In this document: positions 7,053 through 27,968 of the stretch, piece after piece
Numbering within the stretch: position 1 is the stretch's first letter
Layout: every line of letters begins with the position of its first letter
From: a virus
Virus record (IMG/VR): IMGVR_UViG_3300025276_000029
Coordinates: 1 to 64,000 of that record
Direction: 5' to 3' (one strand)
DNA: 64,000 bases
Notes under the pieces: model-generated
The model's input: the letters and a program-made list of their open reading frames with translations, nothing else
Told to the model about the DNA's origin: nothing
Databases searched by the model: none
Translations under genes and position numbers: made by a program

Positions 7053-7502
7053 TTAAGCTACAGTTACCACTTCTAGTTCAAAGGTTAAGTCCTTACCAGC
7101 TAATGGATGATTCGCATCTAATACGACTGTATTCTCTTTAACTTCTTTTACAGTCACCTGCATAACTTGTTTTTGCTCATTCTCAGTTTGAAGCATGTCT
7201 CCTTCTTTTACAGTATCAGGAACAAATTCTTTCTCAACTTCTTGATAGTGATTTTCTTGAATCGGACCATAAGCGTCTGCTGATTCTATAGTTACTGTTT
7301 TAGTTTCACCTTCTGCCATACCTTGAAGAGCTTTTTCAAACCCTGGGATAAGCATCCCTTTACCTAACTCAATATCTAATGGGTCTCTGTCAATAAATTG
7401 TTCTTGGCCTTCAACTGCTTTAGAAGAATCGAAAATTGTACCGTCTGAAAGTTTTCCAGTGTAATGTACTTTTACTTTACTGTCTTCTTTAATAATTGTC
7501 AT
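7053..7502 (-). CDS. SlyD-like FKBP-type peptidyl-prolyl isomerase
   Basis: 149 residues from the ATG at 7502 (MTIIKEDSKVKVHYTGKL). The FKBP half has VHYTGKLSDGTIFDSS and LGKGMLIPGFEKALQGMAEG. After VTIESADAYGP comes the insert-in-flap chaperone domain (about residues 75-125, with GDMLQTENEQKQVMQVTV), and then the last FKBP strand, LTFELEVVTV. This is the SlyD plan without the metal-binding His/Cys tail. The expected role is cytoplasmic proline isomerisation and chaperoning, probably of abundant phage proteins. It has its own strong host-type promoter and a terminator, so it can be made early and alone. Confidence 0.9.
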   Translation of the reverse strand: MTIIKEDSKVKVHYTGKLSDGTIFDSSKAVEGQEQFIDRDPLDIELGKGMLIPGFEKALQGMAEGETKTVTIESADAYGPIQENHYQEVEKEFVPDTVKEGDMLQTENEQKQVMQVTVKEVKENTVVLDANHPLAGKDLTFELEVVTVA

Positions 7503-7576: not shown

Positions 7577-7604
7577 AAACCCTCTAAAATTAATTAGAAG
7601 GTTT
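7577..7604 (-). terminator. Rho-independent terminator of the tmRNA gene
   Basis: AAACCTTCTAA / TTAGAGGGTTT with a following run of eight U on the minus strand, 45 nt past the mature tmRNA 3' end. Confidence 0.8.
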
Positions 7605-7648: not shown

Positions 7649-8011
7649 TGGAGTATTGGGGATTGAACCCCAGTCTCACTTACTTCTAATAAGTTTTCTA
7701 CATGCTTAGTCAGTCTTTTCTAGACTAACAAAAATAGATAGTTTCATTATTAACCGCTGATACTAACAACTAACGGGTGTCTTTGGTAGGTCTCAAAGTC
7801 TTAAACCATGTTTGTCCCTGAAGGACGTGCATCTTCGGTTAGGCGAATGCTACCTCTCCTGAGAACTCTTCTACTTGAGAAGTTTCTAGGAAGTTTTTGT
7901 CAATGTCAAACTCGTTGTCATCTAAAAAATTGCAATAGGTTATTAAAGTGTTTCCATTTAACACTGCATGCTTACTAATCACAACTTAAGTAATCAATAA
8001 CAATATACCCC
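7649..8011 (-). ncRNA. ssrA: Transfer-messenger RNA (tmRNA), 363 nt
   Basis: The ends form a tRNA-like acceptor: 5' GGGGUAU (8011-8005) pairs with 3' AUACUCC plus discriminator A (7656-7649), with one G-U pair. A T-arm ACTGGGGTTCAATCCCCA precedes the 3' end. The 5' D-like segment TTATTGATTAC and the AAGCATGC element are typical of tmRNA. CCA is not encoded. The tag frame lies in the expected place, and pseudoknot-rich sequence follows its stop. tmRNA with SmpB rescues stalled ribosomes and tags the nascent chain. Phage tmRNAs are known but uncommon. A strong host-type promoter is 29 nt upstream, and a precursor of about 22 nt extra would need RNase P processing. Confidence 0.93.
7839..7922 (-). 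other. tmRNA tag-peptide reading frame
   Basis: An open frame inside the tmRNA, from GAT (7922-7920) to TAA (7841-7839). It gives 27 residues starting DDNEFDIDKNFLE and ending EEFSGEVAFA. The exact resume codon is inferred. The tag is much longer than the roughly 10-residue ...ALAA tags usual in Bacteroidetes. In length, acidic start and AFA end it resembles mycoplasma tags. Confidence 0.8.
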
Positions 8012-8039
8012 ATAAATTAAAGAACGTATCTTATAAACA

Positions 8040-8070
8040 CAAATATACTAAAACTTTACTAACTTGTCAA
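8040..8070 (-). promoter_or_regulatory. Host-type promoter TTGACA-N17-TATATTTG for tmRNA
   Basis: TTGACA at 8065-8070 and TATATTTG at 8040-8047. The predicted start is near 8033, 22 nt before the mature 5' end. Confidence 0.82.
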
Positions 8071-8156: not shown

Positions 8157-8573
8157 TTAACTTTTTCTTGTTAAATTAGCTGAATCTAACTGATTTACAA
8201 ATTCTTTTTCCGTAAGCTTAATAAGGTCGTGGAGCTTATCAGCCCTCGAATCTAAATTAGACTCAAGTGTACTTAATATTCGAAATATATCTTCGACATT
8301 TTGGGTGAGATTACTATTGTTCTCTTCACTCTTTTTGTCAATTACTCGATATATTTCATCGATACCTTGGGTGAGATTACTATTGTTTTCCTCATACCTT
8401 TTGTCACTTGACCTTTGGTTTTCATCAATTAAATTGATTAAACCTGTTATCTCGTTGTTAAACATTTCGTTCCCAACCTTTTTGTTCAACTTCGTAAACA
8501 TAACCACAATAGCCGTAACTAATGCAACCACACCTAGAGTTGATAAAACTGAAATTAAAATAATTGTTTCCAT
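8157..8573 (-). CDS. Single-pass membrane protein with repeated coiled coil
   Basis: 138 residues. An N-terminal membrane segment (IILISVLSTLGVVALVTAIVV, about residues 4-24) is followed by a short basic linker and a long coiled coil. The coil contains two copies of a unit of about 22 residues built on EENNSNLTQ (NNSNLTQGIDEIYRVIDKK and NNSNLTQNVEDIFRILS), and the DNA of the two copies is also nearly identical. The Lys/Arg-rich flank after the helix predicts that the coil is cytoplasmic. Possible roles include a membrane scaffold or superinfection-exclusion factor. Nothing in the sequence decides this. Confidence 0.6.
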   Translation of the reverse strand: METIILISVLSTLGVVALVTAIVVMFTKLNKKVGNEMFNNEITGLINLIDENQRSSDKRYEENNSNLTQGIDEIYRVIDKKSEENNSNLTQNVEDIFRILSTLESNLDSRADKLHDLIKLTEKEFVNQLDSANLTRKS

Positions 8574-8935: not shown

Positions 8936-9673
8936 TTATTTCTTAGTGATAATATCATCTATTATACCATATTCTAAAGCTTCCTTAGCGTTAAGCCAAT
9001 TATCTCTTTCGCAATCTTCAAGAACTGTTTTGATATCCTTATCAGTATAATCTGCAAGCATACCAAATAAGGTTTGATTATACTTCTCAGCTTCTGCAAT
9101 ACTAATCTTCATGTCTTTAACGTGACCTTGAGCACCACCACTAACTTGGTGAAGCATAACCCTAGAGTTTGGTAGCGCAAATCTTTTACCTTTAGTTCCG
9201 TTACCTAATAAAATAGAACCCATTGACGCTGCCATACCAGTATTAACTGTTACAATATCAGACTCAATATAGTTCATTACATCTACCATGCTTAGACCGC
9301 TTTTAACGCTCCCTCCTGGACTATCTACGTGCATCCTAATGTCAGACACCTCTAGGTTGTCTAAGAACATTAATTGAGCACATACAACAGTTGACATTTG
9401 GTCGTTAACTGGTCCAGCAACCCAAAGTATTCTATCCATCATTTGTCTTGAGAAGATATCCATTTGGGTTACTCTTAATTCTCTTTCTTCAAGAATATAT
9501 GGTGTCATTGACCCATTAGGCGAGGTACTACCTACCACATTAACGTTATCGTATAATGACGTTTGTAATTTATCCCAATAGTGAAATTGCATTCCACTAA
9601 TCCCCATATGGTTCATTGCATAGTTCTTAAACTCACCATAGTAGTCTGTATTTGTATTTATGTAGTTTTCCAT
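8936..9673 (-). CDS. clpP: ClpP-family serine protease
   Basis: 245 residues. The ClpP core runs from about 58 to 240: the oxyanion region VDSPGGSVKSGLSM (117-130), nucleophile Ser150 in NTGMAASMGSI, His175 in VMLHQ, and Asp224 in ERDNWLNAKEA. The triad is thus complete, and the order and spacing are those of ClpP. An extra 50-60 residues at the N-terminus (MENYINTNTDYYGEF...) replace the normal propeptide and loop region. A phage ClpP can act as a maturation protease or can redirect host ClpX-type unfoldases. Here it lies about 1 kb from a phage tmRNA, so a role in degrading tagged proteins is an attractive inference. Confidence 0.9.
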   Translation of the reverse strand: MENYINTNTDYYGEFKNYAMNHMGISGMQFHYWDKLQTSLYDNVNVVGSTSPNGSMTPYILEERELRVTQMDIFSRQMMDRILWVAGPVNDQMSTVVCAQLMFLDNLEVSDIRMHVDSPGGSVKSGLSMVDVMNYIESDIVTVNTGMAASMGSILLGNGTKGKRFALPNSRVMLHQVSGGAQGHVKDMKISIAEAEKYNQTLFGMLADYTDKDIKTVLEDCERDNWLNAKEALEYGIIDDIITKK

Positions 9674-10634: not shown

Positions 10635-10665
10635 CAAAGATACTATTAATCAACCTTAGTTTCAA
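10635..10665 (-). promoter_or_regulatory. Host-type promoter TTGAAA-N17-TATCTTTG
   Basis: The -33 element is at 10660-10665 and the -7 element at 10635-10642, within and just after the 3' end of dnaJ. It drives the 10597-to-8616 operon containing clpP. Confidence 0.65.
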
Positions 10666-11698
10666 CCCCTTCGTGTATTTTTTTTAATTTTTTAATTAGT
10701 TCTAGCTCTTCACCTTCAATGTTTGTTGGCATTTCTATGTCTAAAATAATTATCATTGCGCCACGAAAATTATTTCTAATATTGTTTAAGCCCTTGTTAA
10801 TTATCCTTAAGTTGTCACCAATTTTACTATATTCTGGTATTGTAACTCTAATCTTACCTCCCTCAATTGTTGGTACTTCTACTTTATCACCCATAACTAG
10901 TTGTGGGTAACTTAACTTTAACTGATATTTTAAATCATTACCACTTATTACAAAATCTTCATGAGAAGCAATGTTAATCTTAATAAGCAATGAGCCTGGT
11001 GTACCACCTTTGATAGCGTTACCCATCCCAGAATATTGAAGTGTTTCTTGTTCGGTAATACCTTTAGGTATGTTTACTGTAATAAGTTCTTCTTTATTAC
11101 CTACACCCACACCTTTACAGCTATTGCATACTTTTTTAACTACATTACCTTCTCCTTGACAAGTTGGGCATGTACGTTGTGTTTGGAAGTTACCCATAGG
11201 TGTCATCTGCTGTGTTATAACAAAACCTCTACCGTCGCACGTTCCACAAACTTGTTTGTCGGTTCCACCAGCTCCGTTACAACTAACGCAAGCGGCTTTT
11301 CTTTTGTATTTAAATTGCTTTGTTGCACCATTAAATACTTCTTCAAGCGTAATCTTCATATTAAATATTATGTCTTGTCCACGCTTTTCTCTCTGTCCAC
11401 CAAATGGGTTTCCACCAAACGGGTTTCCACCCATTCCCCCACCAAAGTGATTCATCATATCTTCCATATTTACACCACCTTGCATTGGCCTTTGTTTGGT
11501 GTGTCCATATTTGTCATAATTATCTTTTTTTACTTTATCTGATAATGTTTCATTAGCTTCTGATATTTCTTTAAATAAATTTTCGTCACCACCTTTATCT
11601 GGGTGGTGTTCCATAGCTAATTTTCTGTAAGCTTTTTTTATTTCTTTATCTGTTGCACCTTTTTTTAGTCCAAGTATTTCGTAATAATCCCTTGCCAT
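10646..11698 (-). CDS. dnaJ: DnaJ-type Hsp40 co-chaperone
   Basis: 350 residues, the full type I layout. It has a J domain with HPD at 32-34, a Gly/Phe-rich linker ([17 protein letters not shown]), and four CxxCxGxG zinc-binding repeats ([32 protein letters not shown]; about 137-200). The two C-terminal substrate-binding domains follow. It is slightly shorter than E. coli DnaJ at the C-terminus. It should recruit host DnaK and stimulate its ATPase. Phage lambda and T4 exploit host chaperones for replication and capsid folding; a complete phage-encoded DnaJ is uncommon. It sits in the same block as ClpP, FKBP, tmRNA and bS21. Confidence 0.93.
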
Positions 11699-27122: not shown

Positions 27123-27968
27123 CTATTCATTAATTATATCAAATAAATCACTAGCGTTAAATCTAACCCTTCTGATAGCTTTTTCTTTTATTTGTCTAAT
27201 TCTTTCCTTAGTTAGGTTATACTTGTCACCAATAGCTTCAAGCGTCATTCCATTATACTCCTTATTAATACCAAAATAGCATTCAAGAATTTCTTTTTCC
27301 CTGCTGTCTAGTTTTGAAAGTATGTTGTTAATTTCTATTTTGATTCTTTCGTCAGTTGAAAATATCTCTTCTTCTATGTTAGAATTAGCATCTGCTATAA
27401 GACAATATAGTTCGTCACCGTCTTCATTTATAACGTCATTTAATGATGTGCACTGAGGTGTTATTAAGTGTTCTATCGCATCACCGTTAGTATCTAATAA
27501 ATCACCATACACTGGAAGTCTTTCGTTGTCTAATTCAAATCTTTCAATTTCTTTCCTTAGGTCTGAAACTTTTTTAATGACATTGGTAGGTAGTCTAATC
27601 ATTCTAGCATTGTCATTAAGACTCTTAATTATTGACTCTTTAATCCACCAAACCGCATAGGATATAAACTTAAAGCCTCTAGTGTGGTCAAAACGAGTTG
27701 CTGCCTTAACCAGACCTAAATTTCCTTCACTTATAAGGTCACTTAATGAAAGACCTTGGCCTTGATAGTCTTTTGCTATTGATATTACAAATTTTAAATT
27801 TGCACCAACTAGTTTATTTACTGCTGAATCATCACCGTTTTTAATCTTTATCGCCAAATCTACCTCGTCTTCAGGTGTTATTAATTCACTTTTTCTTACA
27901 TCTTTAAAATAATTAGATATTGTTGCGTCGTCTGAGGTGTTTGCAAATTTTTTCTTGTTCATATTCAT
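27123..27968 (-). CDS. RpoD-like sigma factor of Bacteroidetes type
   Basis: 281 residues. Region 1.2/2 begins near ITPEDEVDLAIKIKNGDDSA and continues through NLKFVISIAKDYQGQGLSLS, DLISEGNLGLVKAATRFDHT and RGFKFISYAVWWIKESI. Region 3 is shorter and diverged. Region 4 has the helix-turn-helix MTLEAIGDKYNLTKERIRQI with KEKAIRRVR. It has the size and order of the short Bacteroidetes housekeeping sigma, but the -10-reading and -35-reading parts differ enough to change specificity. T4-like phages normally use the small gp55 as late sigma; here a full host-type factor probably does this. The likely target is the TATTTATA box class, one copy of which precedes this gene. Confidence 0.93.
   Translation of the reverse strand: MNMNKKKFANTSDDATISNYFKDVRKSELITPEDEVDLAIKIKNGDDSAVNKLVGANLKFVISIAKDYQGQGLSLSDLISEGNLGLVKAATRFDHTRGFKFISYAVWWIKESIIKSLNDNARMIRLPTNVIKKVSDLRKEIERFELDNERLPVYGDLLDTNGDAIEHLITPQCTSLNDVINEDGDELYCLIADANSNIEEEIFSTDERIKIEINNILSKLDSREKEILECYFGINKEYNGMTLEAIGDKYNLTKERIRQIKEKAIRRVRFNASDLFDIINE

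Follow-up and report, generated by a model that had tools for sequence, protein, structure and literature searches.

A phage tmRNA with a long, conserved tag frame beside a clpP gene in a chaperone block

The window analysed here is a stretch of 64,000 nucleotides, positions 1 to 64,000 of the 71,552-base IMG/VR record IMGVR_UViG_3300025276_000029. A one-piece tmRNA gene lies on its minus strand among genes for a protease and chaperones, with the following features.

7053..7502, minus strand: FKBP-type peptidyl-prolyl isomerase (Pfam FKBP_C, 1.3e-18, and synteny)
7577..7604, minus strand: intrinsic terminator 3' of the tmRNA, an 11-pair stem followed by a T run
7649..8011, minus strand: one-piece tmRNA, mature RNA, CCA not encoded (Rfam RF00023, with alignment and covariation over 13 relatives)
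7839..7841, minus strand: tag stop codon TAA (translation)
7842..7919, minus strand: tag frame of 26 codons, DNEFDIDKNFLETSQVEEFSGEVAFA, resume codon GAC (relaxed ARAGORN, Rfam alignment and pN/pS)
8017..8025, minus strand: BoxA-like GTTCTTTAA in the 5' leader, directly before the mature end (GTTCTT-type motif in relatives)
8040..8070, minus strand: Bacteroidetes-type promoter, TTGACA-N17-TATATTTG, 28 bases 5' of the mature end (similar motif in relatives)
8157..8573, minus strand: putative membrane-anchored coiled-coil-like protein between tmRNA and ClpP (membrane and coil character read from the sequence)
8936..9673, minus strand: ClpP protease, 245 aa (Pfam Clp protease, 1.4e-58; NCBIfam ClpP models; aligned with solved ClpP structures)
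10646..11698, minus strand: DnaJ chaperone (Pfam DnaJ and DnaJ_C, and synteny)

The full Rfam RF00023 model (1-374) matches the window at 8011-7646 on the minus strand with 55 bits (E 7.5e-19), which is above the curated cut-off of 47 bits, yet the score is low. ARAGORN missed the gene at its default setting and recovered it at a relaxed threshold; since the relaxed setting called many spurious tmRNAs when applied to whole loci, the coordinates used here are those of the Rfam model. Both mature ends, 8011 and 7649, are those given in the initial annotation, and this gene is the single tmRNA found in the 71,552-base record. The acceptor stem GGGGUAU/AUACUCC contains the alanine identity pair G3-U70 and is followed by the discriminator A; at the corresponding pair 3-392, 11 of 13 aligned rows have GU, and the other two are out of register by a single column at their 5' end. 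The 3' CCA is absent from the gene, where the sequence reads ..CTCCA|CGT. The T-arm and T-loop (GGGG-TTCAAT-CCCC) are present, and the stem covaries among relatives. The fold beats 100 of 100 shuffles (z -3.6), and compensatory changes occur in 25 of 48 consensus pairs over the 13 relatives. Pseudoknot 1, before the tag, is supported by two crossing helices with 86% of cells paired and with covariation exceeding that of shuffles and slides. The 3' half, the region of pseudoknots 2 to 4, aligns poorly. A phage tmRNA with clear tRNA-like ends and T-arm, as initially annotated, is confirmed by the match above the cut-off, G3-U70 and the T-arm. A nucleotide search among named phages found no relative.

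The Bacteroidetes promoter consensus is TTG/TAnnTTTG, and a promoter similar to that of the window lies 5' of the tmRNA in all nine relatives examined. With its predicted promoter and terminator, the tmRNA gene appears to be its own transcription unit. A GTTCTTT-type BoxA-like element is also located 5' of the tmRNA in 11 of 37 Bacteroidota host leaders (among L193-L216).

With regard to the tag, the consensus resume codon GCA aligns to GAC in the Rfam alignment and ARAGORN concurs, so the tag most likely consists of 26 residues starting DNEF. The 27 residues starting DDNEF that had been annotated include one D too many, from the -1 triplet before the resume codon, though the description of a long and acidic tag holds for the 26-codon frame with its TAA. 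Position 1 is G, D or A across 14 homologues, its codon always beginning with G. Over these 14 distinct sequences pN/pS is 0.51 in the tag frame (95% CI 0.34-0.72) and 1.12 and 1.42 in the other two frames, showing that protein-level constraint acts along all 26 residues. Without the four codons that hold the invariant TTCCT/GGAGAG, the value is 0.53. These segments, like AGGT/GCCT, could pair, with weak covariation support; since their third positions are nearly fixed, RNA-level constraint also lies behind part of the tag conservation. F4, N9, E22 and A26 are invariant in the 14 tags. Position 25 is variable (F in six, L in four, A in two, Y and I in one each), so that conservation lies not in the AFA end but in the interior, NxFDIDENFLxxASVEVxxGEVA, within the window-type pattern [DG]NxFDIDENFLxxASVEVxxGEVAFA. 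Moreover, the C-terminus is nonpolar with Ala as its last residue in 14 of 14 homologues, and some relatives' tags end IAA, VAA or ALA.

The tmRNA belongs to a gene block that most window-type relatives keep in the same order, all on one strand: DnaJ, a protein without assigned function, ClpP, the coil protein, the tmRNA and FKBP. The phage ClpP mentioned in the initial annotation is the product of clpP at 8936..9673, near the tmRNA. The Ser/His/Asp triad motifs are present in the window protein and in the relatives checked. Its best NCBIfam score is with NF011091 (PRK14514), the scores being below the NCBIfam ClpP equivalog cut-offs. PHROGs classes the nearest phage families as head proteases; a role in head maturation was rejected because ClpP models give the top NCBIfam matches and the gene stands in a chaperone block. 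For the coil protein at 8157..8573 no family match was found in profile searches; relatives have one at the same place.

Scanning viral sequences with the ClpP of the window as query gave 80 loci, and Rfam was run on 50 of those records, 32 of which have a tmRNA above the cut-off. A scan with a tag-DNA pattern, independent of ClpP, gave 13 stretches, including one false match inside a coding gene (L159) and three new real contigs. In nearly all window-type relatives the tmRNA follows clpP on the same strand, at a distance of 0.1-2.0 kb, and clpP stands beside the tmRNA in both tag-scan contigs that are long enough (L157, L166), the third ending too soon; such counts are not independent, because the phage records share ancestry. 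A second phage clade has long tags of the GNTFAKMAxLGL type with ends VVxA or similar, and in nine records of this clade a Clp ATPase gene is located on the strand of the tmRNA, 2.2-4.5 kb away; in a tenth, G048, the distance is 14.6 kb.

One relative, G002, differs in its tag. At the position of the long-tag tmRNA it has a 340-nt tmRNA (L153:3114-3453) with an encoded CCA and the short, host-like tag GNAEYAMAA; FKBP follows directly, a similar coil gene is present, and a ClpP 78% identical to that of the window is located about 6 kb off. G002 combines ClpP and a syntenic FKBP with a short tag, so a phage ClpP can do without the long one. This relative shows that the tag is exchangeable, which is the main argument for reading by an ordinary host protease and calls for caution.

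The other components of such a system are found in part of the relatives. SmpB is encoded by G001, the closest relative, whose ClpP is 90% identical to that of the window, and by G014 and G015 (362 and 353 kb); the remaining 32 records searched, many of which are fragments, yielded none. The 71.5 kb window record, itself a piece, has neither SmpB nor a Clp ATPase. In each of the three IMG/VR phages having it (L147, L148, L149), SmpB directly adjoins a gene for a sigma factor; unlike in G001, no SmpB lies beside the sigma gene of the window (27123-27968). Clp ATPases of 821-838 aa in G007, G014, G015 and G050 contain Clp_N, AAA, AAA_2, D2-small and a VGF loop. They pass no NCBIfam equivalog cut-off and are called ClpC-like; with two AAA+ modules, an N domain and a docking loop, they have the predicted architecture of a ClpC-type unfoldase. 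The second clade has versions of about 670 aa, and the phage Clp ATPases bear the VGF/IGF-type loop for ClpP docking. No phage Lon was found in the 24 phage records searched, three of them larger than 350 kb. G014 also encodes a 649-aa protein (L155:1735-3684) with an unusual combination of AAA+, ClpB D2-small and FtsH-type peptidase M41 matches.

The host is likely a member of the Bacteroidota, because the window ClpP matches NF011091 best and its genomic matches are mostly from Saprospiraceae, Aureispira and Lewinella. Host tags were sampled from ARAGORN readings in 37 Bacteroidota loci (the first two sets) and most of 20 regions (the third). Nearly all readable ones have 9-10 aa and end -ALAA, -AMAA, -AIAA or -RLAA, in agreement with the initial contrast between short ALAA-like host tags and the long phage tag; a few tags are read as longer, such as DYQNNLIGEPRFAMAA, or are likely misread. 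The chromosome of one Bacteroidota genome, G168, has a second, weak tmRNA match (L235, contig 772761-773172; 49 bits), which shows no clear tag and may be a relic or stem from a provirus.

We somewhat favour the reading that this is a working phage tmRNA and that its tag is a degron for a Clp protease, most likely one built on the phage ClpP. The tmRNA would be transcribed during infection from its own promoter and processed, CCA would be added, and the RNA would be charged with alanine. Together with SmpB, either of the host or, in relatives having one, of the phage, it would rescue stalled ribosomes and join Ala and the phage-specific 26-residue tag to the nascent protein. Working trans-translation is well supported; charging and tagging in vivo are inferred. 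The tag is taken as a degron because its end is always small and nonpolar and its neighbours are protease and chaperone genes. Gene linkage suggests a protease based on the phage ClpP as its reader, probably with a ClpC-type unfoldase, encoded by the phage itself in larger relatives, or with a host Clp ATPase. This suggests that such phages may run a private tag-and-destroy system during infection. More tentatively, some huge phages could possess a self-contained tmRNA/SmpB/ClpP/ClpC circuit whose 26-residue degron, private to the phage, has co-evolved with its Clp machine and is poorly read by that of the host; we consider this possible but doubtful. The conservation of the tag as protein over 26 residues and the Clp linkage in two clades make the idea of a phage-owned degron and protease directly testable with a reporter, and the phage tag could give an orthogonal degradation tag.

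On the other hand, trans-translation may be of the ordinary kind, with host ClpXP or ClpCP reading the tag like the host's own, the long tag being a lineage quirk and the phage ClpP serving another purpose. We regard this as a serious, though unlikely, alternative. It fits the nonpolar, Ala-final end in 14 of 14 homologues, the -AA degrons used by Bacteroidota and the host-type tag of G002 among the same neighbours, but constraint spans the whole tag, far past a C-terminal ClpX degron, and linkage to phage Clp genes recurs in two clades. Escape from host ClpXP, the first option in the initial annotation, by which products would be stable and only ribosomes rescued, is improbable. The tag end does differ from the host -ALAA and -AMAA; however, protective tags end charged, and this end is small, nonpolar and without such charge, some relatives end IAA, VAA or ALA, and the neighbours are protease and chaperone genes.

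The initial annotation had drawn a parallel to mycoplasmas, whose AFA-ending tags go with the absence of ClpXP (PMC3985003) and, according to the account of earlier work given there, are read by Lon in their extended form (Gur and Sauer, 2008; Ge and Karzai, 2009). The phage tag does recall these tags in its length, its acidic start and its AFA end, with no sign of common origin. We rejected a similar routing of tagged products to Lon as quite improbable, because close relatives with an otherwise shared tag differ in the AFA end, the 24 phage records searched yielded no Lon, and, whereas mycoplasmas lack ClpXP, the phages bring a ClpP of their own, joined in large relatives by a ClpC-like ATPase; since it is the interior that is conserved, the parallel is weak. 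Finally, a degenerate or decoy tmRNA that tags nothing would agree with the low Rfam score and the miss by default ARAGORN but is highly improbable, given the compensatory changes, pseudoknot 1, the constrained tag frame and the conserved promoter, and a pseudogene was rejected.

Compared with bacterial one-piece tmRNA (SsrA, RF00023), the phage gene has the same tRNA-like domain, G3-U70, pseudoknot 1 and tag frame with a stop, whereas its tag has 26 aa against 9-10 aa in most sampled Bacteroidota and its Rfam score is low. Phage tmRNAs are already known: they were reported earlier in mycobacteriophages and Bacillus phage G (PMC4131195) and were found in 402 of 18,146 phage genomes (PMC9004378). 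What is new here is a tag both long and conserved, together with its linkage to phage Clp genes; a partial literature search found no published description of a clpP-tmRNA linkage in a phage chaperone block. Phage Melnitz similarly bears an ssrA with its own expression signals, but this tmRNA is of the two-piece type, with a glutamine riboswitch and no clpP block described (PMC9004378). In huge phages tmRNA was reported with SmpB (PMC7162821), and Lak phages and the 636 kb LR756504 share tmRNA, SmpB and ClpP with the system described here. The tag of Lak-C1 (L243) is short, DDEIDFRMAA, unlike that of the window, and the tag of LR756504 (L242) is long, DNVNSFEQSILNELFAPVEMAVAA, but unrelated to it. 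The 380 kb relative G007 carries two full tmRNAs with unrelated tags (L082 / G007:C1:327939-328335 and L008:6278-6647), one tag being of the window type and the other ending ATVGHFVAEDAAVVA.
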